Of a stretch of 54,708 nt of DNA, positions 782 to 40,384 are shown in pieces. The notes under the pieces were generated by a model. The model had not been told where the DNA came from. It was given only the letters and a program-made list of their open reading frames with translations, and searched no databases. The stretch is from a virus. The DNA lies in IMG/VR virus record IMGVR_UViG_3300035670_000266, positions 1 through 54,708 of that record; one strand, written 5' to 3'. Every line of letters begins with the position of its first letter. Within the stretch, counting starts at the first letter, position 1. The position numbers and the translations under genes were made by a program.

Positions 782-922
782 AATTTCTCCCTCATGCAGC
801 ACCATAAATATAGCTTGACAGAGGTCGAGAATATGATGCCCTGGGAGAGAACTGTTTACATCTCTCTGTTGAACCAATGGATTAAGGAACAAGAAGAACA
901 GAGGAAAGCAGCACAGAGATGA
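746..922 (+). CDS. 51: gp51-like small tail-hub assembly protein, possibly made as a fusion
   Basis: This 58-residue frame starts two bases after the gp26-like stop codon (ATG 746) and ends in an ATGA overlap with the next gene. It begins MFYNNLENYYRTNF and contains a helical MMPWERTVYISLL motif around residues 30-42. That resembles the small second component of tail-assembly chaperone pairs. In T4 the matching position is filled by gp51, a hub-assembly catalyst. The ATG has poor ribosome-binding context (AGGG abuts it, and it lies at the base of a hairpin). Expression is therefore more likely by -1 frameshifting from the upstream gene or by stop-start coupling. The name gp51 rests on gene order and general character and is less sure than gp26. 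Confidence 0.65.
   Translation: MFYNNLENYYRTNFSLMQHHKYSLTEVENMMPWERTVYISLLNQWIKEQEEQRKAAQR
803..810 (+). promoter_or_regulatory. Possible late promoter (CATAAATA)
   Basis: CATAAATA fits the NATAAATA form of T4-like cyanophage late promoters. It lies inside the gp51-like gene about 110 bases before the tape-measure-like gene. AT-rich coding sequence makes chance matches likely. Confidence 0.3.
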
Positions 923-3900
923 TCCCTCAAAAGGCAATCAAAAAATTTAAAAACGATGCTCATCGAGAAATCGTTGCTGGGATTTTACTTGCCTATGGAT
1001 TCTTTCCTAGAACATCCGAGGGTATTGAAGAAGCAAAAAGATTTGTTGCTGGATTGACTGAATGGATTGCCCCATCTGATTTACCTAATTATTATAATGA
1101 GATTGAAAGTGATCTAATGACTGGCAGAGAAACTGCTGGCATTATGAATATTAGAATGATAATGCAGGAGTTTTATTTTGGCGGAGGTAATAAAGAATCG
1201 GAACAAGAAGAGATACCTGTTGAAGTAGAAATCGTTGAGGTTGAACAGAAGCAACCAGACGAACCTGTTGTTGTAACAATAGAAGCACCATTCGAAAATC
1301 CAGTATCACCTGGACTTCCACGTAGGATTAGATTACCACGTAGAAAGAATGTAATTAGAGTTCCTAGACAAAAGAAAAAAGATACTGCCGAGAGAATGGC
1401 AGATGCTTTTGATGCTAGGTTAGACGATCTTCTTGATACAATTAGAAATCCAGATCCAGGATCAGCTCCACCTAGAGTAAGAAAAAAGAAGCAAGTACTG
1501 GCAACTAAAGTTAAGAAAGTATCTGCTAAGTTTGAAAATATAGATCCATACAAAGCAAAAACATTTACTGGGTTTTTAGGATTAAAGGTAAAGAAAGCAT
1601 TTGGTAGAGCTGCCGAGGCAAGAAGGATTGCTAAGGAGCAAGGTGCTGAGGAACAAGGTAGGGGTTATTTTTTAAAGAAGGCACTAGGATTTGAGTTTGG
1701 TGGTGATAAGTTATCAAGAATAAAAGGAACATTTTCCAAGAGTCCTACTGCTGTAAATGATCCAGCTCTAAGTCCAGATCAAAGATTCCTTGCTGGCATT
1801 GCTTCTGATATTACACCACCTCCAGTAAAGCAGGGAGAACTATTCAACACCAAACAGTATGAAACTAAGACAGGTCTAACAAAATTCTTTGATGACAGTG
1901 TAAGTAGATTACAAAATTCATTTGCTAGAGTAGATAAGAAGTTTGCTGATCTTATTCAGATAAAGAGAAGTGTTTCTGATGATCGTAATCAATTACTAGG
2001 AATACAAAAGACTATTGATGGATTGAAGAATGCTTTAAGAAAAAATAATGATACTCAGTCTGATATTAATGACACAAAGACGAGACAACTAGAATTATTA
2101 TTTGATATAGCAGATGCTGAACAGACAGCAGCTGCTGAATCTGGATTGGAAAAAGGTGAAGACTTAAGTACAACAGTAAAATATCAAGATCCTTATGGAA
2201 AACTTAAATCTATAGCAGCAGGGGCCACTGGAGGTGGACTATTAGATGGATTACTTGATTTCTTAGACCTCAAAGATTTAAAAAATGTGAAAAATCTTGG
2301 TCGTGGTGCTTTGAATGTAGGAAAGAATATTGGTCGTGGTGCTTTAAATTTAGGAAGAAATGCTGTAAGTGGTGTGAAAGGGTTTGTTTCTGGTGGTGCT
2401 GCTACAGCAGCTGCTATAGTTGCGGGAACTGGACTTGCTGCTTCTGGTGTTGGAGAAGGCTTTTTTCAACTGACAAAAAAAGGCGGAATTGGTGAGCAAG
2501 TTAGAGACTCCCTTAAACAAATGGGAGAAAAAAGATCTAAGCAAGATCCTATAGGAGGAATGATATTAGGAGGACTTGGGAATCTTGCTGGAGTATCAAC
2601 CGAGGCAACTAAAACTACTGGTGTAGCACTCGATGCTATCGGTGCTCCTTTTAGATATGCTGTAGAAGCAATACGAAATCCTTTCTTAAACAAGGAAGAT
2701 AAAGAAAAGCAAGCAAATAATCTTGCTAAATTTGATTCCAGAATAAGAGAGTTCTCTCGTGGGTGGATGAACCAAATAGATTTTCTTAATGTTATTTCTG
2801 ATGAAAAGGGTGGTTTTGGAAACATTTATGGCAATGCCGAAGCACAATCTCAGATGATGGAAAAAATGTCTGAAGGTGGTGTAGTCAAGTTTGCTGAAGG
2901 TGGAACAGTTAAGGCAATGATTGGTGAAGCTGGTCCCGAAATGCTATTAAGAAATGGTCAAGATGGTGGACTCAATCCATATCAATCTCTAGCACCAATG
3001 ATCATTGCTACCAGGGAAATTACGAAACGAGTTGGTAACTGGGCAGATCCTATAGAAAATTATGTCAAGAAAATTACAGATCCGATTGCTAAACAAATGA
3101 GACTGTCAGTTGTTCCATTGTCCACTTCTTTGGGCAAAACTGAACCACCAAAAATTCAACAAGAAGATCCAAACAAAAAAGGTGGTATATTAGAATTCTT
3201 GAAAAATCTTTTTAAAGGAAAAGACGATAAGAAATCTAACTCTACTGGATCTGGAGGAACTACAGATCCAGGTCCAGGTCCAGCTTCTGGGGATTTTTGG
3301 TTATTGGCTGTAGCTTCTTTGTTTGAAAATTCTAATCCACAAGGAGCAGCAGATGTTGCTCAAGCAATATATAACAGACTTGCTTTACCTGGATGGGGGA
3401 AAACAATTAGAGATATTATTTTATCTCCAAATCAATTTCAACCAGTAAGACAATATGGTGGAGTTGGTCAATGGTCTAAAATTACTGATAGACAAACAGC
3501 TGTTGATTTTATAACTAAACACGGAAAGACAGAGGATCAATTAAACAAAGTAGTTTCTGCCTTACAAGATCCAGCGATGCAATCTAATGCCAGACAATTT
3601 GTTGGTGCTAGAGATAATTTTAGGGCAGATTCGTATGAGAGAACCGCTAATCATTTAGATGATTCGACAGAAGTTAGTCGTCATGGGCATACATTTGGAA
3701 TGGAAGCAGGGGGTGCTAATTATGGTGCTTTCAAAGCAGGTAAATTATCTGCTGGTGGTGTCCCTACGTTTGATTCATCAGGAACCTCAGATGCTCAACG
3801 TGCTCAATTACAAACACCACAACCACCTTCCCCCGCTAAGGCGTCAATGAAGTCTCCTATACAACCTCCATCCAGTAATTCTTTACAACCTCTAGCACTC

Positions 3901-4065
3901 CCAGCAGCACCAGCACCTGGCGGTGGAATATTTGTGATGCCAGGAGCAGCCCCAATGCCAGCAGCAGGAACTGGTTCACAAGCATTTTCATTTTTACCAC
4001 AGAGCAATAGACAACCAGAGTTATCACTTGAAAGTATTAGACAGCTGTCTCTTGGTAGACGATAA
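919..4065 (+). CDS. Tape-measure-like virion protein with SleB-type cell-wall hydrolase domain
   Basis: This is a 1048-residue tail protein. The N-terminal third is basic, helical and likely coiled coil. A glycine/alanine-rich hydrophobic stretch lies around residues 430-535, followed by repeats of the SEGGVV / AEGGTV / IGEAGPEMLL type, common in C-terminal parts of phage tape measures. Residues about 790-945 resemble the SleB (hydrolase 2) fold: SLFENSNPQGAADVAQAIYNR, with Glu near 803 in the usual acidic position, then SPNQFQPV. The tail of the protein is Pro/Ala-rich. It shares an N-terminal block (FGGD..R.KGTFSK, NDPALS) and a DLSTTV.Y.DPY block with the next gene, so the two are paralogues. 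I infer roles in setting tail length and in local peptidoglycan opening. The start overlaps the preceding stop (ATGA). Confidence 0.75.
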   Translation: MIPQKAIKKFKNDAHREIVAGILLAYGFFPRTSEGIEEAKRFVAGLTEWIAPSDLPNYYNEIESDLMTGRETAGIMNIRMIMQEFYFGGGNKESEQEEIPVEVEIVEVEQKQPDEPVVVTIEAPFENPVSPGLPRRIRLPRRKNVIRVPRQKKKDTAERMADAFDARLDDLLDTIRNPDPGSAPPRVRKKKQVLATKVKKVSAKFENIDPYKAKTFTGFLGLKVKKAFGRAAEARRIAKEQGAEEQGRGYFLKKALGFEFGGDKLSRIKGTFSKSPTAVNDPALSPDQRFLAGIASDITPPPVKQGELFNTKQYETKTGLTKFFDDSVSRLQNSFARVDKKFADLIQIKRSVSDDRNQLLGIQKTIDGLKNALRKNNDTQSDINDTKTRQLELLFDIADAEQTAAAESGLEKGEDLSTTVKYQDPYGKLKSIAAGATGGGLLDGLLDFLDLKDLKNVKNLGRGALNVGKNIGRGALNLGRNAVSGVKGFVSGGAATAAAIVAGTGLAASGVGEGFFQLTKKGGIGEQVRDSLKQMGEKRSKQDPIGGMILGGLGNLAGVSTEATKTTGVALDAIGAPFRYAVEAIRNPFLNKEDKEKQANNLAKFDSRIREFSRGWMNQIDFLNVISDEKGGFGNIYGNAEAQSQMMEKMSEGGVVKFAEGGTVKAMIGEAGPEMLLRNGQDGGLNPYQSLAPMIIATREITKRVGNWADPIENYVKKITDPIAKQMRLSVVPLSTSLGKTEPPKIQQEDPNKKGGILEFLKNLFKGKDDKKSNSTGSGGTTDPGPGPASGDFWLLAVASLFENSNPQGAADVAQAIYNRLALPGWGKTIRDIILSPNQFQPVRQYGGVGQWSKITDRQTAVDFITKHGKTEDQLNKVVSALQDPAMQSNARQFVGARDNFRADSYERTANHLDDSTEVSRHGHTFGMEAGGANYGAFKAGKLSAGGVPTFDSSGTSDAQRAQLQTPQPPSPAKASMKSPIQPPSSNSLQPLALPAAPAPGGGIFVMPGAAPMPAAGTGSQAFSFLPQSNRQPELSLESIRQLSLGRR

Positions 4066-4068
4066 ATA
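4061..4068 (+). promoter_or_regulatory. Probable late promoter (GATAAATA)
   Basis: GATAAATA overlaps the stop codon of the SleB-bearing tape-measure gene and sits 26 bases before the ATG of its paralogue. It matches the NATAAATA late motif at the expected distance from a start codon. Confidence 0.5.
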
Positions 4069-4093
4069 TTCACGGGATAAAGTATCTTTATAA

Positions 4094-6328
4094 ATGGCAC
4101 ACGGGTTTGTATCATATTCAAAACCAAAGTACGGTAATTTATCAGGATACATAGCCGATAAAATTAAATCTGCTGCGGGAATGGCGGCAGAAGAAAGAAA
4201 GGCAAGAGACGAAGAAATAAAATCATTACAGAAGAAAGAAGAATTAACAGATGAAGAACAAGAAAGATTAGATTTTCTTACAGAACAACAGGGTGGAAGA
4301 AAAGGATCTTTCTTCGGTAAAGCATTAGCAGCAGAGTTTGGTGGCGATAGAGCAAGAAGATTAAAGGGAACTTTTTCTAAAGATCCTTCCAAAGAAAATG
4401 ATCCAGCACTATCAAAGGGCGAAAGATTTAGTGCTCTTCTAGATAAACCAGATGCTCCAGCAGAAGAACCAGTAAAACCAGAGACGCCTTATACTCAGTT
4501 GTCTTTACCTGGCATGGGTGCTGAACCAGAATCTGGAGACATCAAAGAATCTTTAAGCAAAATATTTTCTACGATATTAAAATCGTATGATACTATTGCC
4601 GATAGAGTTTCGGCGGTTGGATCTGCCGAGCGAGAAAATGTATCAAAGTCTGATAAAAGAAATAATTTTCTAGCATCTATATCTTCTGGATTGGCATCTT
4701 TTAAAGATTATTTTTCTACTGATAATAAGTTAAAAGAAAAGGAATTAGATACTGAAGTAAAACAATTAGAGTTCGCTATTGATCAGCAAGAAAATGCTGA
4801 ATCAATAGCAAATGAATCTAAGTTAGAAGCTGGTCAAGATCTTAGTACCACTGTTGGATATGAAGATCCATATGCTAAGAAAGAAAAAGAAGGCGATGAT
4901 GGCGGTGGTATCTTAGGTTCTATTGGTAATCTATTAAAAAATTTCCTTCCTAAAGGTGGAAAAGTACCAGGCAAAGGTGGTGGTAAGTTTGGTGCTCTTA
5001 AAAATATAGCGGGATCTTTTGGTAAGGGAGGAATGTCTCCCACAAAGATGTCAGAAGGAGGAGTTATATCTCCTGTAAAAAAAGAAGCACCAAAGAAAGT
5101 AGAAGCAGCAAATAATATTAAGAAACTTTCTAAAGGTGGCATTGTTCCTTCACCAAAAGCAAAGCCAGAGAAAACAAAAATGGCTGCTGGTGGAATAGTT
5201 GACAATCCAACAGTAACGAATTTAAATCCTGGTGATGCTGTTGTTCCTTTGAATAGAAACAATGCCATGGGTAAGATGTTCCAGTCTGCTGGATCATCTG
5301 CTAGTAGAGTAATGGCAGATCCGCTAGCAAAGGTTATGCAACTTCCATCTCAAGTTGGTGGTGGATTGATGATGGGATTATTGTCTCAAGGCATGGAAAA
5401 ACTTGGCGGTATTGCCAACTTTTTCAAACCAGCAATCATGAAGATTGCTACTCCGTTAGCACAGATGTTTGGACTGCCAGCAACTATCATCTCATCCTTC
5501 TTTGGTGGCCCAGCAGCAGCTGCTACTATGGACTTCGATCCAAGCAAGTACATGGGCACTGGTGGCGACTCTACTGCCCCTGGCGGCGCTGCTCCTTCGT
5601 CCCCAGCCCCTCCCCCTGGTGGGTCTGGTGGGGTTGGTCCTGGAATGACTGCTAGTGGAGGTTCAAAAGCATCTGGAAACATCACTTCTGGGTTTGGTAA
5701 CAGATCATCACCTGGAGGTATTGGATCTACTAATCATGGTGGTATTGATATTGCTGGTGGTGCTTGGGTACAAGGAGCTCCTGTTTCTGTAATTAAACCT
5801 GGAACTGTCGAAGAGACTGGAGATCTTGGTAAAAGTGGTTGGGGTAAGTATGTTGTGGTTAAACATGATGATAAAACTCATTCTTTATATGGTCACTTAA
5901 GTCAGATTAATGTAAAGAAAGGAGACAAAATAGAAAATAAAGCTGGTGCTGCCAGAGTTATTGGAAAAATTGGAAGCACGGGAGCATCTACTGGACCACA
6001 TTTACACTTTGAATTGGGTAGTGGGTGGAATGGAACTATCACGGGCAAAATGGATCCTGCTCCATATGTTGATAATTATATTAGAGGTGGCGGCAATGTT
6101 ATGATTGACGCTCCAGTAATGGCAGCTGGTGCTCAACCAGCACCAGCAGGAACACCAGTACAACCTAATAGACCTCCAGCACGAGCAGCAAAACCTGCTT
6201 TTGCTGGACTGACACTGCCATCAGCACAACCACCACAGCAACAAGCAGCTGCTCCTATGGGTCTTAATGCTGCCTTTGGATTAACCAATCCAACTGGAAT
6301 CTATAACAACTATTACAATGGATGGTAA
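4094..6328 (+). CDS. Tape-measure-like virion protein with M23 peptidase domain
   Basis: This 744-residue protein is a paralogue of the preceding gene. They share the FGKALAAEFGGD..R.LKGTFSK block (about residues 75-95) and DLSTTVGYEDPY (about 250-262), then tape-measure-type SEGGVI / AAGGIV repeats. Residues about 526-660 form an M23 (LytM-like) zinc endopeptidase. The HxxxD pair is His548 and Asp552 in HGGIDIAG, YGHLS carries His601, and HLHFEL carries His636 and His638, so the expected zinc and catalytic residues all appear present. M23 enzymes cut peptide cross-links in peptidoglycan. Residues about 455-515 are hydrophobic, Pro- and Gly-rich. I infer a virion protein that opens the cell wall during injection. 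The C-terminus is a Pro/Ala/Gln tail. Confidence 0.8.
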   Translation: MAHGFVSYSKPKYGNLSGYIADKIKSAAGMAAEERKARDEEIKSLQKKEELTDEEQERLDFLTEQQGGRKGSFFGKALAAEFGGDRARRLKGTFSKDPSKENDPALSKGERFSALLDKPDAPAEEPVKPETPYTQLSLPGMGAEPESGDIKESLSKIFSTILKSYDTIADRVSAVGSAERENVSKSDKRNNFLASISSGLASFKDYFSTDNKLKEKELDTEVKQLEFAIDQQENAESIANESKLEAGQDLSTTVGYEDPYAKKEKEGDDGGGILGSIGNLLKNFLPKGGKVPGKGGGKFGALKNIAGSFGKGGMSPTKMSEGGVISPVKKEAPKKVEAANNIKKLSKGGIVPSPKAKPEKTKMAAGGIVDNPTVTNLNPGDAVVPLNRNNAMGKMFQSAGSSASRVMADPLAKVMQLPSQVGGGLMMGLLSQGMEKLGGIANFFKPAIMKIATPLAQMFGLPATIISSFFGGPAAAATMDFDPSKYMGTGGDSTAPGGAAPSSPAPPPGGSGGVGPGMTASGGSKASGNITSGFGNRSSPGGIGSTNHGGIDIAGGAWVQGAPVSVIKPGTVEETGDLGKSGWGKYVVVKHDDKTHSLYGHLSQINVKKGDKIENKAGAARVIGKIGSTGASTGPHLHFELGSGWNGTITGKMDPAPYVDNYIRGGGNVMIDAPVMAAGAQPAPAGTPVQPNRPPARAAKPAFAGLTLPSAQPPQQQAAAPMGLNAAFGLTNPTGIYNNYYNGW

Positions 6329-28495: not shown

Positions 28496-29389
28496 ATGAC
28501 AGTCTATTACACAAAGGAAAAAGCAAAATTTGGTGGCGTTAGTGGTACTATAATACCATATGTGAAAAAAATGCCAACAAGCAATGATCCTGGAGTAGGT
28601 GAGTGGAAAGAATTTCTTCCAGCTGGATTTTTGAGATGTAATGGCGAAATTTTTAAAGCAGTTGAATATCCTGTTCTGGCAAGTATTTTAGGTGTTGGTG
28701 ATGATTGTAAATTTAAAAAAGATGATCAAGAACTAGCAGCAGATGAATTTCAATTGCCAGATTTGGGGTCAAAATATGTGCTTGGTGGTAATTCTTCTGG
28801 TGCTTATTTAAATACTAGAGTATTGAATGAAGAAGGAAATAATCAATACAGAGTTGGGTGTGAAATTGAAGTAACTTCTCTTGTTGGCACATCAAAAGAA
28901 ATTTCTTATGGCGGAACTTTTACTGTTGTTGGGCAAGGAGAAATATCTTTTATCGGTAACCCGACCTTTACAACAACCACCAGCGATGGTAAAACATTAA
29001 ATGCTTTTCTGGGCGAGCAAAATTTCCAAGCACATGGTCATGAAGCTGATGTTGGTGTCTTTTCTTACTTGGGAAAATGGACAGATTCGGCTTTTATTGA
29101 TTCTGCTGCTTCTAACGGTGCTAATGATGGGCAAAATGAAGGATCTAATGAGTTAATTACGATCGATGCTCCAACGGGATCATCTGCTGTAGTTTCTCAT
29201 GGTCATTTAATAAATTTCCCAAATACCGCTACAATTACCACCAATAATCAGCTGAGATATTCTTTTGAGGATTTTCCAGTTGATGCTTTTGGATTGAAAT
29301 CTACGGTTACTATCACTACAAATAATATATTTAAATTAGATGAAGCAACTCCGCCATATATTTTAGTAGAATATTTAATTAAAATTTAA
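28496..29389 (+). CDS. Tail-collar domain fibre protein (297 residues)
   Basis: This is a shorter relative of the preceding gene. The collar pattern is clear: GTIIPYVKKM, EFLPAGFLRCNGEIFKAVEYPVLASIL (about 38-65), then FQLPDLGSKYVLGG. Later parts include QNFQAHGHEADVG and AVVSHGHLINFP, histidine-bearing loops like those near metal sites in short tail fibres. It starts two bases after the previous stop. It probably trimerises as part of the baseplate or fibre set. Whether it and the 574-residue protein form one structure or alternative tips cannot be told from sequence. Confidence 0.65.
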   Translation: MTVYYTKEKAKFGGVSGTIIPYVKKMPTSNDPGVGEWKEFLPAGFLRCNGEIFKAVEYPVLASILGVGDDCKFKKDDQELAADEFQLPDLGSKYVLGGNSSGAYLNTRVLNEEGNNQYRVGCEIEVTSLVGTSKEISYGGTFTVVGQGEISFIGNPTFTTTTSDGKTLNAFLGEQNFQAHGHEADVGVFSYLGKWTDSAFIDSAASNGANDGQNEGSNELITIDAPTGSSAVVSHGHLINFPNTATITTNNQLRYSFEDFPVDAFGLKSTVTITTNNIFKLDEATPPYILVEYLIKI

Positions 29390-29397
29390 TTAAAATA

Positions 29398-31290
29398 ATG
29401 GGATTATTTTATAGAGAAGATGGAGCTTCTGGTACTTGGACTAGACCATCAAACGTAAAAAAAGTTTATGCTTTTGGTATTGGTGGTGGTGGACCTTCTG
29501 ACGGAGCTAGTTATTCGGGCGGCGGTGGTGGATATGGATGGTTAGTTCCAGATGTTTCTTCATCTTCGACATTAACTGTTCAATCTGGTGTTTTTGGATC
29601 TATATGTTATACTGTTGTTGGTATAACTTGTCAAGCTAGAGATGGTGGAGACAGCACTGTCACTTGGAATGGTGGTTCTGTTACTGGATTTGGTGGAAGG
29701 GGATCTTTTGTTAGCACTGGACCTTTTCAGTATAGTGGATATAGTCAATATCCTTCTGGCGGTGGTCATACGGGAAATGGCAATAATGGTAGAGATGGGC
29801 GCCCAGGAAATCGAGCTGGAATTACTGGAGGTGATGTTGGCGCAGGAGAAGATGATTGGTCGGCTTCTAATCATCCTGGCGGCGGCGGCGCTGGAGGAAG
29901 AACTGTAATTGGTGATAATGGTAGATCAGCTCATGAAAATCTTCCTCCAGAAATTGCTGCTCAATATCCTCCGTGTCCATTTGAAGGATTAGGACCATAT
30001 ATAATCGGATATGGTGATAGTGATGGCACTCCAATTGTTCAATGTGGATATCTATGCGGATCTGAAGGTGGTCAAGGAGTAAGCTTATTAGGAAATTCCG
30101 TTACTTCTGGAAGTAGTTCTATAGGAATTTGTGGTGCTGGATATGGCACCACTAGTGGCGGCAATGCTATTGGCGGTGGATATGGTGGCGGCGGAGGATT
30201 GGATGTAAGTTACTATGGATGTCGTGGTGGCCCAGGCGCTGCTGGAATTGCTTGGGTTGATATAAATTCTGTTTCAAAAACTACATTAACTCCAGGAGAA
30301 ACTGCCACAGTATCTTGGAGTTCTCCATTTGGATCTGGAACTTCTGTTGCTGGACCTTTTACAAATACTACTGAAGGTAATATAACTGTAGAATATGATG
30401 TCACAGATCCAATCGGTGCTCAATCTACAGTAACTTTTACTATATTAGCGCCGACAAAAATTACCAATTTTACATATAATCCTAGTCCACAAAATAGTTC
30501 TACTGGTACACCTCAATATTCTGTACAGTTATTTTGGAGTGTTACAGGAGGAAATGGTTCTTTTACACACACAATAACTAATTTATCTACAGGTCAAGTT
30601 TATAATAATGTTTCTAGTGGAATGACTTTATCTGGTCTTCCTCAATCAAATGCTAATGGAAATTCTCCAGCATCTGTTAATGTTAAATTGACATCAACAG
30701 ATGGTTCTACGAGTGATGAAGAAACCATAACTATTCAAGTTCGTAATGATAATACTCCTTCAAATTCTTGGACTGCATCTTTTATTAATTTAGAACCATC
30801 AACAGAATATTCATTGTCATTGGGGCAACTTGAGGGAGTTGATATGCCAACGATAGCTTCTGCAGCTGGAGATGGAAATTTTGTTGGCAAATCTGTCAAT
30901 GGACCATTTGGAAATCCATTAATTTTCAATAATGGTGAAGGTGTATTTTTAAAATTTACATCAATGCCATTTAATACAACTGTTCCTTCCTCTGGGACAT
31001 TTGGATTTACAAATAGTAAAACTATATCCGTAACTATAGGATCTCAAGCTTTTAATGTAACGGTAACTACACGGGCACCAAGAGTTGCTGAAGATTTTAA
31101 TTACTTTGATAAAGAGGGCGAATATCCATATCAAGATATTGATCTTATATCTAACAACCCAACTCAATATTTAACAACTGCCAATGTCGTAACAAATGAC
31201 ATTGAAATACCCGTGGAGATTAAAGCATCTGATCCAGGTGTACAGGTAAATATAAATGGATCTGGGTGGCAAAATGTGAGGAGTATATAA
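29398..31290 (+). CDS. Modular tail-fibre protein 1 with Gly-rich head and shared C-terminus
   Basis: This 630-residue protein has three parts. Residues about 1-285 are extremely glycine-rich (GGGGYGW, HPGGGGAGGRT, GGGYGGGGG), as in phage receptor-binding tips built from polyglycine helices. About 290-445 are Ig/PKD-like beta domains. About 449-630 are a C-terminal module also present in the next two genes, with NLEPSTEYSLSLGQLEGVDMPT, APRVAEDFNYFDKEGEYPY and a final NVRSI. The codons of that ending (GTGAGGAGTATA TAA) include GAGGAG, which serves as the ribosome-binding site of the following gene. That gene's ATG follows the stop without a gap. A role in host recognition is inferred. Confidence 0.65.
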   Translation: MGLFYREDGASGTWTRPSNVKKVYAFGIGGGGPSDGASYSGGGGGYGWLVPDVSSSSTLTVQSGVFGSICYTVVGITCQARDGGDSTVTWNGGSVTGFGGRGSFVSTGPFQYSGYSQYPSGGGHTGNGNNGRDGRPGNRAGITGGDVGAGEDDWSASNHPGGGGAGGRTVIGDNGRSAHENLPPEIAAQYPPCPFEGLGPYIIGYGDSDGTPIVQCGYLCGSEGGQGVSLLGNSVTSGSSSIGICGAGYGTTSGGNAIGGGYGGGGGLDVSYYGCRGGPGAAGIAWVDINSVSKTTLTPGETATVSWSSPFGSGTSVAGPFTNTTEGNITVEYDVTDPIGAQSTVTFTILAPTKITNFTYNPSPQNSSTGTPQYSVQLFWSVTGGNGSFTHTITNLSTGQVYNNVSSGMTLSGLPQSNANGNSPASVNVKLTSTDGSTSDEETITIQVRNDNTPSNSWTASFINLEPSTEYSLSLGQLEGVDMPTIASAAGDGNFVGKSVNGPFGNPLIFNNGEGVFLKFTSMPFNTTVPSSGTFGFTNSKTISVTIGSQAFNVTVTTRAPRVAEDFNYFDKEGEYPYQDIDLISNNPTQYLTTANVVTNDIEIPVEIKASDPGVQVNINGSGWQNVRSI

Positions 31291-32598
31291 ATGCCATTAC
31301 CTCCCGTAGTATCTGTTAATTGGACATTATCTCAATCTGGAGTTGGATCTCCATATGGTTGGAATATTTCAAATAGTGGTAATACAATAAGATTTGATGT
31401 TCAAGATTCTGCCAATTGTGGTGGACCAAATAGTAATATTCAAAGTGGAACTGCTTCTGCTGTACTAACCGCTCAAGCAAGATTTAATATGCTTGTTTCA
31501 TTAACTGGTCTTGGGGAAACACAAGATTCTGGATATGAAAATATGACTCTTAGATATAATGGAACAAATATTATTACTGCCACATCTCCAGGTGGACAAC
31601 AAGGATGTGCTGCTGGAGGCCCAGTATTACAGACAATTTTAGTTCCAGGACCATATTTTATACCAAAAAATAGTAGTAATACGTTTGAATTATCATTTAC
31701 CACATTAGATAATTTATTTCATATCGGATGTTTTTACCAATGTAATTTAACATTTCAATTATTAGATCCTCCAGAAATAATTAGTTTTAGTGCCAATCCA
31801 AATCCACAAACAAATTCTAATGGTACGCCTACGTCTGATACTATTTTAACGTGGGCTACTTTTGGCGCCGAAACTCTTTCTATAAATCAGGGAGTTGGTG
31901 ATTTATCTACTGCTTCTGGAAATACGGGGGTTATTAGTGCTGGTATACAATCGATTGTGGGATCTTTATCTCCAGCACAAAAAACTTATACGTTGACAGC
32001 TACCAACACTGCTGGATCTGTTACACAAGATGTTACAGTTTCTGTTTTTAATGACAACACACCGTCAACTTCTTGGACTACTTCATTTAGTAATTTAGAA
32101 CCCAATACTGAATATCAATTGTCTTTGGGACAACTTCAGGGGGTAGATATGCCTACTGTAGGATCTACTTCCGCGTCTGGATCTTCTCTTAGCAATGGAG
32201 TTGGGGGAATATTTTCAAATCCAAAAACATTTACCAGTGGCAATAATGTTGTATTGAAATTTACTACTCTTCCTTTTAATACTGACATATCTGGAGAAAC
32301 TGGAATTTATGGAAAAACAAATAGTAAAATAATTCCAGTAACTATAGGAACTCAAACTTTTAATGTGACAGTAACTACAAAGGCGCCAAGAATAGCAGAA
32401 GACTTTAATTATCCTAATAGAGTAGTTGAATATCCTTTTGAAGATATTGATCTAATTAATAATTCTCCTACAAATTATATTAACAGTGGCACTATAGTTA
32501 CCGATGACATTGATATTCCTGTTGAAATAAAAGTGTCTGACCCGAATTTAGAGGTAAATATTAATGGAACTGGTTGGAAAAACGTGAGGAGTATCTAA
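31291..32598 (+). CDS. Modular tail-fibre protein 2 with a non-Gly-rich head and shared C-terminus
   Basis: This 435-residue protein has an N-terminal beta-rich head (about 1-160) with several cysteines (NCGGPN, GCAAGG, IGCFYQCNL). It shares nothing obvious with the glycine-rich heads of its neighbours. A PKD/Ig-like part follows (FSANPNPQTNSNGTP near 170), then the same C-terminal module of about 182 residues from near 253 (SNLEPNTEYQLSLGQLQGVDMPT, NVRSI end). It is flush with both neighbours (TAA then ATG). The head swap on a constant base suggests that the three genes bind different receptors or were built by duplication and domain exchange. Confidence 0.65.
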   Translation: MPLPPVVSVNWTLSQSGVGSPYGWNISNSGNTIRFDVQDSANCGGPNSNIQSGTASAVLTAQARFNMLVSLTGLGETQDSGYENMTLRYNGTNIITATSPGGQQGCAAGGPVLQTILVPGPYFIPKNSSNTFELSFTTLDNLFHIGCFYQCNLTFQLLDPPEIISFSANPNPQTNSNGTPTSDTILTWATFGAETLSINQGVGDLSTASGNTGVISAGIQSIVGSLSPAQKTYTLTATNTAGSVTQDVTVSVFNDNTPSTSWTTSFSNLEPNTEYQLSLGQLQGVDMPTVGSTSASGSSLSNGVGGIFSNPKTFTSGNNVVLKFTTLPFNTDISGETGIYGKTNSKIIPVTIGTQTFNVTVTTKAPRIAEDFNYPNRVVEYPFEDIDLINNSPTNYINSGTIVTDDIDIPVEIKVSDPNLEVNINGTGWKNVRSI

Positions 32599-34158
32599 AT
32601 GCCAACATTCGAATATACTAATCCAGGAGAATATACTGTTGCTATTCCAGGTAATGCTGTTAACATTACAGCAGTTGTTCGTGGCGCTAGAGGCGGCAGG
32701 GGTGGTACTGATGCTGGGGCTCAAGGTGGTCCTGGTGGAGTAACGACTATACAAAATTTTACTTTTACTCAAAATTTTGTTACTAGAACTGTAAGACTTT
32801 GGGTTGGTGGTGCTGGAGGAAATGGTGTAGATAGTCAAGGAAGTGCTGCTGGTGGTGCTGGTGGATATGGATTAGTTAGCGGAGGTACTGGTGGTAGAGC
32901 TGGATCTCCACCATTCTCTGGCGGTGGAGGAGGCGGAGGCGGAGCATCTGCTGTCGGTGTTGATGGTAGTGGTGTTTATATTGTTATGGGTGGCGCTGGC
33001 GGCGGCGGAGGTGCTTCTGACAATAGATCTGGTGCTCAAGGTGGATTTCCATCTGTTTCTGCTACACCAACAACTTCAATTTCCCCAACAGCAGGTGGAA
33101 CTGGACAAAGCCCAGGCGGATCTGATGGTGGTGGTGGCGGCGGCGGCGGCGGTGGTGTCCCTGGCGGTGCTGGTGGTATTTTTGGACTTGATAATAATAG
33201 AGGTGGCGGTGGTGGATCTGCTGGAACATCAGCATACAACGTAAATTTTGTTGTAGCTGGAACTGCTACTAGTGGTCAAGGTTCATTTAACGGATATGTA
33301 TCTATTTCATATGATATAGCTAATCCTGCTATTAGCACTTTTAATGCTAATCCAAATCCACAAGGAAGTTTTAATGGCATTCCTCAGTATTCTACTACTT
33401 TAAATTGGAATACAGTTAATGCCACTACTGTTACTATTACTAGTTCTGCTGGAGAAACTTTTAGTAATCTTTCTGCTGGTGGTAGTTTAAATATAACAAA
33501 TTTAGCACAGTCTGTAACTGGTAGTAATAGTCCTAGAATTAGAAGTTATACATTAACAGCATCAAATCCAGGTGCCACCACATCTTCTACTATAGAAGTC
33601 CAAGCTTATAACGATAACAGTCCAACAACTTCTTGGACAACATCATTTAGTAATTTAGAACCATCTACTGAATACGAATTCTTTATTGGTAAATTGTCTG
33701 GAGTAGATATGCCAACAAATATTTCTGTTTCTGGATCTGGCAATTTTGTTGGAAAAAGTTTTGGAGGTCAGTTCACAAGTTCAGCTTTATTCAATGATCA
33801 AGATAATGTTATATTGAAATTTACTACATTACCATTTAATACTGATATATCTGGAGAAACAGGAATATATGGCAAGTCAAATTCAAAAACCGTGCCAGTT
33901 ACTGCTGGTACACAATCATTTAATGTTACTGTAACTACAAGACCTCCTAGAATTGCTGAAGATTTTAATTATTTTGACAATCAAGGTCAATATCCTTATG
34001 AAGATATTGATTTAATTACAAATAATCCTGTAGAATACTTAAATACCGCTATTGTAACTGCTGATGATATTGAAGTTCCAGTCGAGATTAAAACTGACAA
34101 TCCTGATATACAAGTGAGAATAAATAATGGTACTTGGACTAACATAAGGCAAATCTAA
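32599..34158 (+). CDS. Modular tail-fibre protein 3 with Gly-rich head and shared C-terminus
   Basis: This 519-residue protein has a glycine-rich head (about 1-235, with runs such as GGGGGGGGGV and GGAGGGGGAS), a PKD/Ig-like part (FNANPNPQGSFNGIP near 250) and the shared C-terminal module from about residue 337, ending NIRQI. Between the beta-rich N-terminal start (YTNPGEYTVAIPGNAVNI) and the glycine repeats it resembles Gly-rich receptor-binding tips. It is the third member of the flush tandem array. The DNA of the Gly region is a long GGTGGC-type low-complexity stretch, prone to slippage and recombination. Confidence 0.65.
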   Translation: MPTFEYTNPGEYTVAIPGNAVNITAVVRGARGGRGGTDAGAQGGPGGVTTIQNFTFTQNFVTRTVRLWVGGAGGNGVDSQGSAAGGAGGYGLVSGGTGGRAGSPPFSGGGGGGGGASAVGVDGSGVYIVMGGAGGGGGASDNRSGAQGGFPSVSATPTTSISPTAGGTGQSPGGSDGGGGGGGGGGVPGGAGGIFGLDNNRGGGGGSAGTSAYNVNFVVAGTATSGQGSFNGYVSISYDIANPAISTFNANPNPQGSFNGIPQYSTTLNWNTVNATTVTITSSAGETFSNLSAGGSLNITNLAQSVTGSNSPRIRSYTLTASNPGATTSSTIEVQAYNDNSPTTSWTTSFSNLEPSTEYEFFIGKLSGVDMPTNISVSGSGNFVGKSFGGQFTSSALFNDQDNVILKFTTLPFNTDISGETGIYGKSNSKTVPVTAGTQSFNVTVTTRPPRIAEDFNYFDNQGQYPYEDIDLITNNPVEYLNTAIVTADDIEVPVEIKTDNPDIQVRINNGTWTNIRQI

Positions 34159-34404
34159 ATGACTGTTCGTAGAGAAGTAAGACTAGATAAAATAGAGTGG
34201 AGACCTAATTTAGATCCATCTGTCAAAGTTCCACATACAACTCCTCCAGGGCAAATAGGAGTTACTAAAATAGTAACTACATACGAAGGTGATGAGATTG
34301 TATCTACAAACATTCTACAAAATTATTATAAAGTGACTGATGATATTTCTGAGGAAGACGAAATAGTTCAAAAAGCAGCAAAATTATTTTGGAGCGAAGC
34401 ATGA
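34159..34404 (+). CDS. Small virion-associated protein (81 residues), unknown
   Basis: It starts directly after the stop of fibre protein 3, in the same flush arrangement. Charged and beta-strand rich (TVRREVRLDKIEWRPN, IGVTKIVTTYEGDEIVSTNILQNYY), ending in an acidic helix DDISEEDEIVQKAAKLFW. No domain is recognised. Its place within the fibre array and before a giant fibre gene suggests a linker or fibre-assembly role (inference). It overlaps the next gene by four bases (ATGA). Confidence 0.55.
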   Translation: MTVRREVRLDKIEWRPNLDPSVKVPHTTPPGQIGVTKIVTTYEGDEIVSTNILQNYYKVTDDISEEDEIVQKAAKLFWSEA

Positions 34405-34586
34405 GTAAATTTCCTGTTGTGTATGATATGGATCCAAATGATCCATATTACAAATCTAAAGTGTTTAAATTAGAAGATCTCGATGAAAATGAAAAGGTTG
34501 AGATCTCAGCTGACAAACCAATTCAAGTTAGAATTAATAATGGTCCTTGGATTGATGTTAGACAAGCAGACCTAAATAATCTGTAG
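34401..34586 (+). CDS. Small protein carrying only the end motif of the fibre C-terminal module
   Basis: A 61-residue protein that starts in an ATGA overlap behind a GGAG site (34391-34394). An upstream TTG is less likely. Residues about 37-53 (ISADKPIQVRINNGPWIDVRQ) closely match the last 20 or so residues of the three upstream fibre proteins, for example IQVRINNGTWTNIRQI in protein 3. The rest (PVVYDMDPNDPYYKSKVFKLEDLDENEKVE) is acidic and unlike them. It may be a free-standing copy of the terminal attachment or trimer motif, or a remnant of a fourth fibre gene. Confidence 0.6.
   Translation: MSKFPVVYDMDPNDPYYKSKVFKLEDLDENEKVEISADKPIQVRINNGPWIDVRQADLNNL
34572..34579 (+). promoter_or_regulatory. 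Probable late promoter (CTAAATAA)
   Basis: CTAAATAA lies in the last codons of the 61-residue gene, 41 bases before the ATG of the 1923-residue fibre gene, matching the spacing before other late genes here. Confidence 0.45.
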
Positions 34587-34612: not shown

Positions 34613-37600
34613 ATGCCATTTAGTAGTTCTCCCGTATTAGTTGGTAGAAATGATCAAATACAGGTTCGTTATCCAACACCAGATTTCTGGAACGAGCAAG
34701 TTACCGTTCAGATAAAAATTGGTAACGGACAAGATCCTGATGGTATCACTTTTGGTACTAAGATTCCTGATGCAACACCAGATTCTTTTACTTTTACAAA
34801 TCAATCTGGATTTACTGGTGCTTTTAATGGCACTTCAAGTAGTGGTTCTACAAGTACTTTTCAAAGAAATACAACATACTATTCTCAGGTAATTGATATT
34901 ACTGGAATTGAAGTACCAATTCCTGCCACTATTTCTGCCGTATCTAGTGGACCCAAGAATAATAATACTGCTAATACTACAGCAGCTTTTAGAATCTACA
35001 GAAATGGATCTTTCTTAACAGGTTGGATTACATCCAGAACTGCTAATTATGTTACTCCAGGTGATAGTGGTTTACAACCTGGAGATAAGATTCAACTTAG
35101 AGTTACTACTCCAGATTGGTATACAACAGCGACTACAGTTACTTTCACAGTTTCTGATGAAACTTGGGGTACAAATATTGGACAACCAGCTGCTTCTTTC
35201 TCTAGAACATGGTCTATTACAACTAGAGCACAAGATCAAAATATTCCTCAGTATAGTTTTACTGATCAAGTAGATGTTAAAACAGTAGCTGATGGTGGAC
35301 CCGATTATCATTATCAAGATATTACAATAAACAACATCGATGGAGATGCTGTTTTAAGAGCAACCTCAACGGGTAATTTACAAGTCAGAAAAAATGGTTC
35401 TGGATCTTGGAGCACATCGGTAACTAATCTGGTATTGAACGATACTCTAAACACTAGATTATTGAGTGGTCCTGGATATACAACAAAAACAACTGGAGCA
35501 CTGGATGTTTTTGCTGTTGGTGGGGATACTTATACCTCTGGTGGAAACTCATACGAGAATAATATATCTGGAACTTGGGGATCTAGTACATATGCTGTTA
35601 CACAAAGTTTAGGAACTATAACTGATAACTGGCAGGCGTGGACTGAAGTAGATCGATATCCAAATGCCATTTCAGCTTCACCTATTTTTACATATGGTGT
35701 ACAACCTACGGTAACAGTTGCTAGTGGAGGATTTTCTGCTAACACAAACTATAGTCCAACTGGTGGTAGTGGATCTGGGATGGTCGTTAAGACTGTTGGA
35801 AATAATACTACTTTTGGATTTGGTGTAGTTGTTGTCGATCCTGGTTATGGTTATCAAATTGGTGATACACTTAGCGTAGCGAGTCCTGTGTCTGGAATTC
35901 CTCCAGCACAATTTGTATTGTCTGAATATCAGAAGATAAATGTATCTACTACATCTACTAATGCTGTAGCAGAACCAGGATTTATGTACTTTGCTGATTT
36001 TAATGTCAGTGGATTGGGTACAGAATATTCAAGTGGTTCTTATAACGATTTAGAATCTCCTATTTCTGGACTAGTTAATACTGTAGCAGTTGCTCAAAGT
36101 CGTGTTAATACTTTGAATGGATCTACAGTACAAATGACTGCCATTATTGATGGCACTGGTGGATTTATTAGAAAAAATAATAGCGGAACATGGGTACAAC
36201 AATTAACTGTACAAAATGGTGATGTAATTAATCTCAAAGTAGCATCAAGCACTACATATGGAGCTAGCGTTAATGCTTCTGTTAGATTAAAAGGTCCGCC
36301 AGATGGAAATCCAACAACAGGAAATCCAACTGGTGGACCATCTACAGCAACGTTTGCTGACAAAACAACCACATTATCATTAACGACACGAGCGGAAAGA
36401 TCGACTCCATATCCATTTCATGCTGAAGCAGTTTATCTTTCAGATCCTGGTGAGCAACATGTTGCTCAGGTTTATTTTTCTGGATTAGATGTTGCTACGA
36501 CAGCGGTTATTCAAAGTGGATCTGGATCTTTAAGTAGAGATGGTGTTAATTGGGGTAATAATATTACTGTACAACCAACAGATCAATTTATTTACGTAAG
36601 ACAAAATGCGTCTAGTTCTTCTGGTGGATTAGCACAGTTAACATATAGAATTGGAACATACAGCGATACATTTAGAATTTACACTATTCAATCTAATGTT
36701 CAAGGAGAATTTATTACTTATAGTCAAACAGGAGATGCTCAAAATAATTTTGTAGAATATACATTGCCAGATTTTGCTGGATACTTATTTTATCTTACTT
36801 TAGTTGGAGCTGGCGGCGGTAAAGGTGGGGATGATGCTCCAAATAGTTATGGTGGTCCTGGTGGAGCTGGTAATACACTAAGAGTTCAAGTACAAATACC
36901 AGATTCGGCATGGCCTTTAGATGGTGGTGGTAGTCCAGATAGAAAATTGAGAATATATGCTCCCGATCACGGTAATGATGGAAGTAACTTTGTACAGGGA
37001 TCTGGTGGCGGATTGGGTGGATTTGGGTATTGTTATGGTGGTGATGGCGGTAACGCTGGTCCTAGCGATAAATCAGGTGGCGGCGGCGGCGGCGGCGGAG
37101 CAGCTGCTATAACATTTTCTAATAATGTTTTGATCGCTATGGCAGGTGGCGGCGGAGGCGGAGCAGGTGCTGGTAACGATACAACAATTCCTGCTGCCAA
37201 TTCATACGGTAATTATGGAAGCAATTATGGTACATTACAAACCAGTACTGTTAATTTAAATCTTCCTGGTGATGATGGTCCAAATGCCACTGGAGAGGGT
37301 GGTGGTGCAGGTGGTGGTGGCGGTGGTTATGATGGTAATGCTGGTGTTTTATTAACACAAAAATTAGATGCTAGTGGTGGAGTTATTCAAACATCAGATT
37401 TAGATGCTACTGGTGGAACTGGTGGCGGATCATACTACAATGCAACATATTGTACACTTGTTTCTGCTGCTGCTGTGTCTGGAGATGGTGCTGCTCCTGG
37501 AGAAGCTGGTGCTGTTTATATTGAATTCCCCCAACAAGATATTACTCCAGATCCATTCTCTTTCCCAGATTACGAGGGTGCTGATATTGGCGAAACTGTG

Positions 37601-40384
37601 CTATCAAATATTGTTCAAATTACTGGCATTACTGGACCTGTCCCCGTTACAGTAAATGCTCCTGGATTTAGTGCTGATATGAGACTATGTTCAGGATCTA
37701 CTGCTGCTACTTGTGGATCTTTCAACAGTAGTATTTCTATTACAAATGGTCAATATCTTCAGATTAGAGCAATCGTTGGGAATCAATATAATAATACATA
37801 TACAGTTACGGTTTCTATTGGAACCGTAACTAATCAATGGAATATTAACACTGGACCACCACCAGATGATGAACCAGCTCCATATTTCTTTCGAGACGTT
37901 GATAACGCTAATATCAACACGGATACTTTGAGTGAGACTGTAACTATTTCTGGTATTAATGTTCCTGTAGTTGTAACAGCAACAGATGGGGCGTATGTTT
38001 CTATTAATGGTGGTTCTTTTGTTGATGGTGATACTTCTCCTGAATCACAAAGAACAATTACTAACGGACAAACACTACAAATTAGATTAACATCATCTCC
38101 AGATTTTCTAAGTTCTGTGTCAACGTCAATAACTGTTGGCACTGGTGATACAGCAGTGTGGACTGTAACAACAGCAGAAGAAAAAGATAGTGTTCCTATT
38201 GGATTTACTTGGATTTATAAACTTGGAGCAGATTTGTTAACAACCTATGAAAGTAATACTATTATTATGAAAGGAATTGAAGTGCCAGTGGATTTTATTG
38301 TTGAAAGTGGAAGTGGAGATGGAAATCCTTCTGGTCCTTTACCAAGAATTAAAGTCAATGATGTATTACAACCAGTAGGAGTCACTCAAGTAACTATAAA
38401 CAATTTTGATACTGTTGCTCTTGTTTATACTACTTCGAATGTTATTGGCGAAACTAGAATTTTTAATACAAAAACTGGATTGGCGACATCTACGGTTGGA
38501 TATTATGAAACAGAGTGGGGAGTTGTAACCGCTGGTCAATTTGGAACTACACCAACAGCATTTGCTTTCTTGACAACTTTAGCAACTGCTCCTAATGTAT
38601 ACACAGAAGCTAAAGATTCTGGTGGTAATGTTCAGGTAGTTACAATTAGTGGATTGTCAACAGGAATTTCTATTGCTTTATTTGGTAATAATAATATTGA
38701 GTTTAATATTAATAATGGTGGATACAACATTTATACTTTGGCATCTCCAGCTAACGTTTCTAACGGAGATACATTTAAAGTTAGATTAAGATCATCGGCA
38801 ATTCAAGGATTTACTAGATCTGCTCAAGTTTATGCTGGATCTTTTAGCACTACATTTAATGTACAAACACCAGCAGCGGTTCAAGATCCTATTTTTGGCC
38901 AATGGTATAGTGCTATACAACCAGTTAAATATGTTGGATCTCAACAAGTGAGGTACAGTACAAAATATGATGGATTGCCAGTAGCATCAATGATTCCTGT
39001 TTTCCAAGATGAAACTCAAGAAGACGGGTGGGGCAATTTAGATGGTAGTCTAGCTTCCAGATTCCATGGATGGTTATATTGTGATGGAGGATATTATGAT
39101 CCAGCAGATTATCCAGCATTGTATGAAGTAATTGGAACCAGTTATGGATCTAAATCTGTGGGTGGTGTTGTTTATTTTAGACTTCCAGATATGAGAAATA
39201 GATATCTGAAAGGAACTGGTGTTATTGATGGCAACTCTCTTGCTTCTCCAGGGTTAACCCCAGAATATAATAGAACTAAACAATCTGGTGCTCCTGGTAA
39301 TGAAGAACCAGGATCATTTGGTGGCATGTGGTTTATCGATACTATTGCTGATCCAGGGGCAGAATTGGAGCAAGTAGAGACACCAGCAACTGGACAACCA
39401 GCACAAGAATCTCAATTCTTTGGTATTGCTCAGGTAACTACCACTGGATACACTGATGTTACTGGGTTGATAGAATTTCAAACATATGGTAGCATTGATG
39501 TTCCTCTTAGCTTGGAAGGAGATAAACAGTATGATATACCATTACACTTTCACGACTTAGTTACTGGTGTTGCTGATCCAGGAAACTTCAAGGGAAGAAT
39601 TAACTGGAATGGTAGAGGTGGTGCTGGCGCTGACATTGCTGCTACAACTAACAATATTATTGGTACTAATAGCGCCCAATTTACAGCAGATACATCATTC
39701 TCAATTAATTTGTGGGGATATGCTGTAGCAAATTATACTTTAGATAGTAGTAATCTTCCTGATTCTTTATATTGTGGTGGTACTCCAGTTTGGTGGAATG
39801 GTAACGTTAGTTTTTATAATGGAAATGCTTTCATGTCTGGCGCTGGATATGAAGGTGCTGTTATAGCATCAACTGGACAATACGCAAATGTTACGGTTAC
39901 TCAAAGTTCTATTACTGTCGGAAGTTCAAATTATAATGAAATAAACACATATATTGATCTAGATACTAAACCTTTCTCGGGAACATCTGGAGCTGTTGGG
40001 TCTGACAACGCTTTGAAATTTGTTGGTGCTCTTGATATTCCGAGAAAAGATGTGACAGTTAAATCATATAATCCCCCATCTAAATTAAAACATACTCATT
40101 ACCTTTCATTGACTGCTATCACAGATACAAATACTGTTTATGGATACGGCAATAATGAAACTGGTGGAACAGCAAGTGCAGGATTACAGAGTTTTGTTGG
40201 TGGAATCAATACTACAGTAGATTTGAATTTCTCTGCTTTAGACATTGGTATCCAAGTTTTACCTGGATCATTTACATTGTCTGAAACTAAACAACTTATT
40301 CCAACACCAGAATTTGCTCCACAAGAGAAAGTTCCTTTGCTTACTCCGTATGTTTGGACTAAGTGGTTAATCAAAGCATTCTAA
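34613..40384 (+). CDS. Giant fibre protein with Ig-like repeats, Gly-rich segment and collar domain
   Basis: This 1923-residue protein is a mosaic. Residues about 1-720 and 1000-1430 hold repeated beta domains of about 90-110 residues. Recurrent motifs are ITGI.VPVPAT, an NGGSF-type loop, a phrase like NGQ.LQIR.TSS, and a WTVTT or LTTRA end. About 729-963 are a glycine-rich insert (VGAGGGKGGDD, GGGGGGGGAAA, GGGGGGAGAG) like those in the smaller fibre proteins. About 1470-1540 are a tail-collar domain (FHGWLYCDGGYYDPADYPALYEVIG, FRLPDMRNRYLKG). The final 380 residues are beta-rich, with HFHDL and KHTHYLSL histidine loops resembling short-fibre tips. Probably a long baseplate-attached adhesin. 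Confidence 0.7.
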   Translation: MPFSSSPVLVGRNDQIQVRYPTPDFWNEQVTVQIKIGNGQDPDGITFGTKIPDATPDSFTFTNQSGFTGAFNGTSSSGSTSTFQRNTTYYSQVIDITGIEVPIPATISAVSSGPKNNNTANTTAAFRIYRNGSFLTGWITSRTANYVTPGDSGLQPGDKIQLRVTTPDWYTTATTVTFTVSDETWGTNIGQPAASFSRTWSITTRAQDQNIPQYSFTDQVDVKTVADGGPDYHYQDITINNIDGDAVLRATSTGNLQVRKNGSGSWSTSVTNLVLNDTLNTRLLSGPGYTTKTTGALDVFAVGGDTYTSGGNSYENNISGTWGSSTYAVTQSLGTITDNWQAWTEVDRYPNAISASPIFTYGVQPTVTVASGGFSANTNYSPTGGSGSGMVVKTVGNNTTFGFGVVVVDPGYGYQIGDTLSVASPVSGIPPAQFVLSEYQKINVSTTSTNAVAEPGFMYFADFNVSGLGTEYSSGSYNDLESPISGLVNTVAVAQSRVNTLNGSTVQMTAIIDGTGGFIRKNNSGTWVQQLTVQNGDVINLKVASSTTYGASVNASVRLKGPPDGNPTTGNPTGGPSTATFADKTTTLSLTTRAERSTPYPFHAEAVYLSDPGEQHVAQVYFSGLDVATTAVIQSGSGSLSRDGVNWGNNITVQPTDQFIYVRQNASSSSGGLAQLTYRIGTYSDTFRIYTIQSNVQGEFITYSQTGDAQNNFVEYTLPDFAGYLFYLTLVGAGGGKGGDDAPNSYGGPGGAGNTLRVQVQIPDSAWPLDGGGSPDRKLRIYAPDHGNDGSNFVQGSGGGLGGFGYCYGGDGGNAGPSDKSGGGGGGGGAAAITFSNNVLIAMAGGGGGGAGAGNDTTIPAANSYGNYGSNYGTLQTSTVNLNLPGDDGPNATGEGGGAGGGGGGYDGNAGVLLTQKLDASGGVIQTSDLDATGGTGGGSYYNATYCTLVSAAAVSGDGAAPGEAGAVYIEFPQQDITPDPFSFPDYEGADIGETVLSNIVQITGITGPVPVTVNAPGFSADMRLCSGSTAATCGSFNSSISITNGQYLQIRAIVGNQYNNTYTVTVSIGTVTNQWNINTGPPPDDEPAPYFFRDVDNANINTDTLSETVTISGINVPVVVTATDGAYVSINGGSFVDGDTSPESQRTITNGQTLQIRLTSSPDFLSSVSTSITVGTGDTAVWTVTTAEEKDSVPIGFTWIYKLGADLLTTYESNTIIMKGIEVPVDFIVESGSGDGNPSGPLPRIKVNDVLQPVGVTQVTINNFDTVALVYTTSNVIGETRIFNTKTGLATSTVGYYETEWGVVTAGQFGTTPTAFAFLTTLATAPNVYTEAKDSGGNVQVVTISGLSTGISIALFGNNNIEFNINNGGYNIYTLASPANVSNGDTFKVRLRSSAIQGFTRSAQVYAGSFSTTFNVQTPAAVQDPIFGQWYSAIQPVKYVGSQQVRYSTKYDGLPVASMIPVFQDETQEDGWGNLDGSLASRFHGWLYCDGGYYDPADYPALYEVIGTSYGSKSVGGVVYFRLPDMRNRYLKGTGVIDGNSLASPGLTPEYNRTKQSGAPGNEEPGSFGGMWFIDTIADPGAELEQVETPATGQPAQESQFFGIAQVTTTGYTDVTGLIEFQTYGSIDVPLSLEGDKQYDIPLHFHDLVTGVADPGNFKGRINWNGRGGAGADIAATTNNIIGTNSAQFTADTSFSINLWGYAVANYTLDSSNLPDSLYCGGTPVWWNGNVSFYNGNAFMSGAGYEGAVIASTGQYANVTVTQSSITVGSSNYNEINTYIDLDTKPFSGTSGAVGSDNALKFVGALDIPRKDVTVKSYNPPSKLKHTHYLSLTAITDTNTVYGYGNNETGGTASAGLQSFVGGINTTVDLNFSALDIGIQVLPGSFTLSETKQLIPTPEFAPQEKVPLLTPYVWTKWLIKAF

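Follow-up and report, generated by a model that had tools for sequence, protein, structure and literature searches.

The IMG/VR contig IMGVR_UViG_3300035670_000266, a 54.7-kb sequence (54,708 nucleotides; referred to here as the window) of a T4-like cyanomyovirus resembling the Kyanoviridae, contains in its tail region an array of three tandem genes, which we call cassettes. The cassettes occupy positions 29398–31290 (630 amino acids, aa), 31291–32598 (435 aa) and 32599–34158 (519 aa) and, like all genes and segments of the array and its flanks given below, are encoded on the plus strand. Each is composed of an N-terminal head followed by a constant C-terminal module. The heads of cassettes 1 (~353 aa, glycine-rich) and 2 (~160 aa) are unique, and the glycine-rich head of cassette 3 (~242 aa) belongs to a class (class 0) present in 20 cassettes in total, relatives included. 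The junctions at 31290/31291 and 32598/32599 are flush, the TAA stop codon being followed directly by ATG, and the open reading frame (ORF) starting at 34159 adjoins cassette 3 in the same way; cassette 1 is separated from its upstream neighbour by an 8-nt gap and lacks a Shine–Dalgarno (SD) sequence.

A first-pass annotation of the window had described these three flush genes, with their different heads and common C-terminal module, but had set the module at 182 aa. By alignment the module is ~277–279 aa long (30457–31287, 31771–32595 and 33325–34155), and its copies, which form direct repeats, are 52–53% identical. It starts with an immunoglobulin-like (Ig-like) domain marked by the motif NPNPQ, continues with a full Ig-like repeat of ~100 aa and ends with the first half of the next repeat. 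The 182 aa correspond to the distal, better conserved portion and were rejected as a natural unit, as homology reaches ~277 aa and the recombining or docking unit would be the last ~45–90 aa. Conservation within the module is highest at the tip, the only part recognisable between the window and phages S-PM2 and S-CAM1. A PDB sequence search with the module profile gave no significant match, Pfam returned only sub-threshold Ig/FN3-like matches for the window cassettes, megablast of the locus against phages found no match, and tblastn with the whole of cassette 3 matched only phage Sf-FR1.

Downstream of the array, at 34613–40384, is a gp12-like ‘short tail fibre’ protein of 1923 aa, containing a phage collar domain (PF07484, E = 5.6e-12; match to the short tail fibre family phrog_4924) and many full Ig-like repeats. 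All ORFs were searched with a profile of the ~100-aa repeat, built from the full-length repeats found in this protein and in its relatives. Found at the C-termini of the cassettes are the first halves of a repeat, here termed plugs (31126–31275 and 32434–32583, each covering repeat positions 1–50 of 100, and 33994–34140, positions 1–49), and at the extreme N-terminus of the gp12-like protein is a second half, the socket (34625–34735, positions 55–91). Between them lies a 61-aa ORF (34401–34586) with a stand-alone half repeat at its C-terminus (positions 4–48), possibly a cap for the socket. In terms of the profile, the cassette C-termini of the window end at positions 48–51, the 61-aa ORF ends at 48, and the gp12-like protein starts at 55.

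The same complementarity extends across the relatives, which include 28 further IMG/VR loci recovered with the module profile (handles beginning with L) and named isolates. Over all loci, 60 C-terminal matches end at positions 48–56 (54 of them at 48–50) and all 31 N-terminal matches start at 54–56, whereas among 260 internal repeats one is truncated to its first half and none to its second. The pairing recurs in S-PM2, S-RIM32, S-RIM44, S-CAM4, ACG-2014e/i/j, Syn1, Sf-FP1, Sf-CH11, S-CAM1, S-CAM3 and S-H9-2, and weakly in Sf-FR1. Sockets and cassettes also occur together: the 14 socket-bearing isolate species have cassettes, and cassettes are absent from the four isolates lacking a socket (Fisher p = 3e-4, without correction for phylogeny, which confounds the association). 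Tips are more alike within genomes than between them (58.7 versus 50.0%; 68.9 versus 56.7% in isolates), a pattern that either a common socket for all tips or homogenisation by recombination would produce.

A different split is found in phage Sf-CH1b and ten IMG/VR contigs, in which the donor proteins end at position 80 or 86–87. There the acceptor starts with M(S/A)YTT(T/N)WSVST, corresponding to the missing last strand (positions 89–98), and its N-terminus ranks first for this strand among 467 distinct N-termini. That the repeat is split complementarily at two different points would be difficult to account for unless an Ig fold forms between chains. The constant end of the cassettes is a half Ig-like domain, complemented in sequence by the start of the downstream fibre protein, which is the likely reason for its constancy. 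This complementary split, a new element beyond the first-pass annotation, would probably give the constant end a mechanical purpose.

In 13 relatives, one to four stop codons separate the 61-aa ORF from the gp12-like gene, with which it shares its reading frame, as though one ancestral gene had been divided; in the window itself the two are out of frame. Such an arrangement is expected of an old fission, and the half repeats could be its relics, a multi-Ig fibre gene having been cut within a repeat and its 5′ part duplicated, with the module attaching by another surface. A relic should decay, yet no part of the module is better conserved than the tip; a different clade splits its repeat at another point with the same complementarity; and loss of the socket coincides with loss of the cassettes. 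We judge an origin as mere fission relics to be quite unlikely.

The array varies in both length and content. Complete IMG/VR arrays contain two cassettes (L003, L015, L016 and L024), three (most loci) or four (L019 and L020), and named isolates have none (S-MbCM7, S-RSM4, S-H9-1 and S-WAM2), two, three or up to six (S-CAM3). On the one module are mounted heads of ~14 classes, ranging from 103 to 1825 aa, and the same class is found in different slots beside different neighbours. In place of a fixed single order, complete relatives present 0–6 cassettes and ~14 head classes, with repeated gain, loss and exchange, as the first-pass annotation had anticipated; the junctions lie where heads begin and within the module.

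Several pairs of relatives locate these junctions. L018 and L019 are close relatives with three and four cassettes, respectively, and cassette 3 of L018 is chimeric: the 5′ part of its module resembles that of L019 cassette 3 (mostly 90–100% identity), and its last ~100 nt and the downstream DNA resemble L019 cassette 4 (90–98%). The difference reads as deletion (or gain) of a cassette through recombination between tips. L006 and L010, with upstream flanks 93–100% identical, carry slot-2 heads of 820 and 208 aa, a complete replacement, and the giant head is common to L006 cassette 2 and L013 cassette 3, as are the ~80 nt before it, which belong to the upstream module. Among isolates, slot 2 encodes 486 aa in S-RIM44 Np42 and 884 aa in S-RIM44 Sn08 and Syn1, between flanks 98.4–98.8% identical; identity resumes 260 nt before the slot-2 stop codon, and slot 1 shows a milder change (85% identity). 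In S-CAM4 and ACG-2014j US23, slot 2 encodes 582 and 1861 aa between flanks ~94% identical; the left junction coincides with the start codon, and the right one falls ~205 nt short of the stop codon.

Lying between cassettes in some relatives are small ORFs that travel with particular heads (L018 8838–9332, L008 10276–10854, L003 8841–9096 and L021 7028–7283). One family is Cys-rich (CxxC...CxxC) and one is helical; they are possibly head-specific chaperones. L028 (1480–7230) encodes a 1916-aa cassette with a DUF5648 head, in which the constant module is broken by ~260 residues.

Embedded in the last codons of the module is a ribosome-binding site (RBS) for the next gene. Ahead of cassettes 2 and 3 the sequence GAGGAG (31278–31283 and 32586–32591) lies within the codons for N-V-R-S, 7 nt before the ATG, and ahead of the ORF at 34159 the third module copy has only a weak AAGG (34146–34149) and no GAGGAG. 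Although AGG accounts for only 22 of 464 arginine codons in the genes of the window, both NVRSI ends use it. At the two internal junctions of the window the SD duplex energy is −8.1 kcal/mol, compared with about −0.8 kcal/mol under randomisation of synonymous codons (p = 0.001 each). With the same null, 28 internal junctions at 19 loci average −6.2 versus −1.6 kcal/mol, although, the loci being related, the combined p-value should not be read literally; 17 terminal cassettes show no SD excess (−3.2 versus −3.0 kcal/mol). A site in the module’s last codons, as first annotated, is borne out beyond codon expectation at two of the three copies.

The usual ends differ accordingly, internal cassettes ending in RSI or RST with AGGAG and terminal cassettes in REI without SD selection. 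One head class can have both ends, RSI with AGGAG when internal and REI without AGGAG when terminal (for example, class 2 in L015 and L017). Because this contrast holds across head classes, the RBS belongs to the slot and not to the head, consistent with crossovers upstream of the stop codon. That each head brings its own RBS was rejected for the same reason, cassette ends tracking the slot; the translation signal that had been attributed to each cassette is embedded at internal junctions but tied to position. Embedded SD sequences might instead reflect the ordinary economy of compact phage genomes, and would then be uninformative about cassettes. Other genes of the window abut closely too, a few with an SD inside the upstream gene, and in isolates the embedded SD is found at some internal junctions only, which would suit that explanation; the rare AGG codons at internal junctions and the lack of an excess in terminal cassettes of the same family do not, and we find it rather unlikely.

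Taken together, these features make it probable that the locus encodes a variable set of exchangeable tail adhesins arranged as an array, each of which docks on the same tail fibre by supplying the missing part of a split Ig domain. The half domain of a cassette would plug into the half domain at the N-terminus of the gp12-like fibre, giving one Ig fold from two chains, so that any head with the right plug could be mounted on the fibre. The DNA encoding the plug is the stretch most alike between cassettes and is for this reason the presumed site of homologous recombination, which would delete, add and swap cassettes. As crossovers fall upstream of the stop codon, the RBS would stay with the slot and every new combination would be translatable. 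The array with its varying copy number, the exchange of heads at mapped junctions, the embedded RBS and the co-occurring complementary half domains are read directly from the sequences; the docking itself, display on the surface and the binding of receptors by the heads are inferred from them. With less assurance, we lean towards a universal split-Ig socket: one gp12-like fibre for which a recombining adhesin library supplies the other half, several adhesins being mounted (mixed or competing), and a split point that shifts between clades but stays complementary.

Several observations weigh against the docking array. The half-domain matches are individually short, with E-values often of 0.001–0.1, and the case rests on their consistency; the cassettes of Sf-FR1 have only a weak tip; and the co-occurrence of socket and cassettes is subject to the phylogenetic confounding mentioned above. 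The internal first cassettes of L004, L008 and L009 end in REI with a weak SD. Phages of the Sf-CH1b type (L035 and L054–L063) have a fixed order of two cassettes (681–684 and ~1454–1466 aa), with no exchange in the contigs seen. A tethered chain, in which the natural stops of L010 between the 61-aa ORF and the gp12-like gene were read as glycine (in silico only, no read-through being claimed), gave a weak plug-and-socket model, with a mean pLDDT of 58, a pTM of 0.45 and values of 74–85 and 76–82 for the two halves, too weak to claim contact. A fold search with this model returned only generic Ig, adhesin and pilin matches.

Cassette 3 by itself is predicted by AlphaFold2 with a mean pLDDT of 90. 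Its model consists of a head, two Ig domains and, beyond a linker, the half domain; the head and full Ig domains reach ~90 or more, and the isolated half domain has a pLDDT of 51–81 and no proper sheet. In fold only, the cassette 3 head (32599–33324) is predicted to be similar to the glycine-rich TNF-like domain of the receptor kinases ALK and LTK (Foldseek E of ~1e-6). This likeness is probably why BFVD labels several phage proteins ‘receptor protein-tyrosine kinase’.

Domains recognised among the heads are PA14 and Gly_rich_2, and most heads have no Pfam match. The lack of matches, and the label of the nearest PHROGs family (‘head and packaging, virion structural protein’), would fit cassettes that are decoration or structural proteins or enzymes, not receptor-binding, with variation reflecting drift or a function unrelated to the host. 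Such a role appears unlikely given the location among T4-like tail and baseplate genes, between the collar and gp12-like genes, the PA14 and glycine-rich heads, and the replacement of whole heads between near-identical phages. In addition, neighbouring proteins mutate in host coevolution: genes 218, 219, 220 and 224 of S-PM2d, in the same block, do so during Synechococcus–phage coevolution (PMC9910659). Owing to the head domains, the tail location and these mutations, receptor binding is the most likely function of the heads.

The array is always flanked by the tail-collar gene (T4-GC 736) on one side and by the gp12-like gene (T4-GC 740) on the other. In the window the collar protein (T4-GC 736/phrog_4714; 28496–29389), with matches in 59 cyanophage records, is directly upstream of the array, and an 81-aa conserved ORF (34159–34404) is directly downstream and closes the array in most of the window’s relatives. 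Genes for the baseplate (T4_baseplate, gp5-like hub) and for a fibre of 3792 aa lie further upstream, and those beyond the gp12-like gene encode a helicase and a tail assembly chaperone. In the baseplate region, two long proteins (919–6328) contain Hydrolase_2 (sub-threshold) and Peptidase_M23 domains and are possibly virion-borne wall enzymes.

For marine cyanomyoviruses, with most of their host-attachment proteins still unassigned, the locus suggests a specific way of altering or broadening host range that is conserved and can be put to the test: an adhesin array of plugs and a socket in which junctions, homology arms and translation signals would coincide. The acceptor and the putative docking residues can be named, as can natural single-slot swaps between near-identical isolates (S-RIM44 versus S-RIM44/Syn1 and S-CAM4 versus ACG-2014j). 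For the many genes of ocean data annotated as ‘virion structural protein’, the array points to a possible function, and the split Ig pair is a candidate natural protein coupling tag.

The closest known counterparts are the Kyanoviridae clusters T4-GC 737–739, 1047 and 1048 (S-PM2 p223–p225 and Syn1_035–037) and phrog_2155, which share the locus, the terminal half repeat and the flush genes, and in which the orthologues of the cassettes are annotated ‘virion structural protein’; the virion proteomes concerned are cited in PMC3037559. The window’s subgroup differs from them in sharing a module of 277 aa, not only the ~45-aa tip, and in having a separate half-repeat ORF of 61 aa. In the non-subscription literature searched, we found no description of the array, of donor-strand docking of phage fibres or of exchange at this locus. 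The downstream 1923-aa protein has the phage collar domain in common with T4 gp12 and other tail collar proteins and, unlike gp12, has a long N-terminal part of Ig repeats and an N-terminal half repeat.

In chaperone–usher pili (of the FimH/CfaE type), donor-strand complementation completes an incomplete Ig-like domain with a strand from another chain. The cassettes are comparable in having an incomplete Ig-like domain in one chain, the C-terminal half repeat; the complementary half, recognised by sequence in another chain, may complete it. The Sf-CH1b arrangement would, by analogy, have the pilus topology, the missing last strand coming from the N-terminus of the next protein. The window type, unlike pili, supplies a half domain and not one strand, with several donors for one acceptor. 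No homology is claimed: chaperone and usher genes were absent from the Pfam and PHROGs matches of the tail-region proteins scanned, and the likeness is one of analogy only.

Modular phage receptor-binding proteins, such as those of gp37/gp38 exchange in T4-like phages, shufflons and the targets of diversity-generating retroelements (DGRs), combine a variable part with a constant anchoring part and exchange the former by recombination. The array differs from all three in that whole genes are stacked in tandem with the variable part N-terminal, and it would need neither the inverted repeats of shufflons nor the reverse transcriptase of DGRs. Unlike in those systems, its constant part would at once anchor the protein, provide a homology arm and carry the RBS of the following gene.

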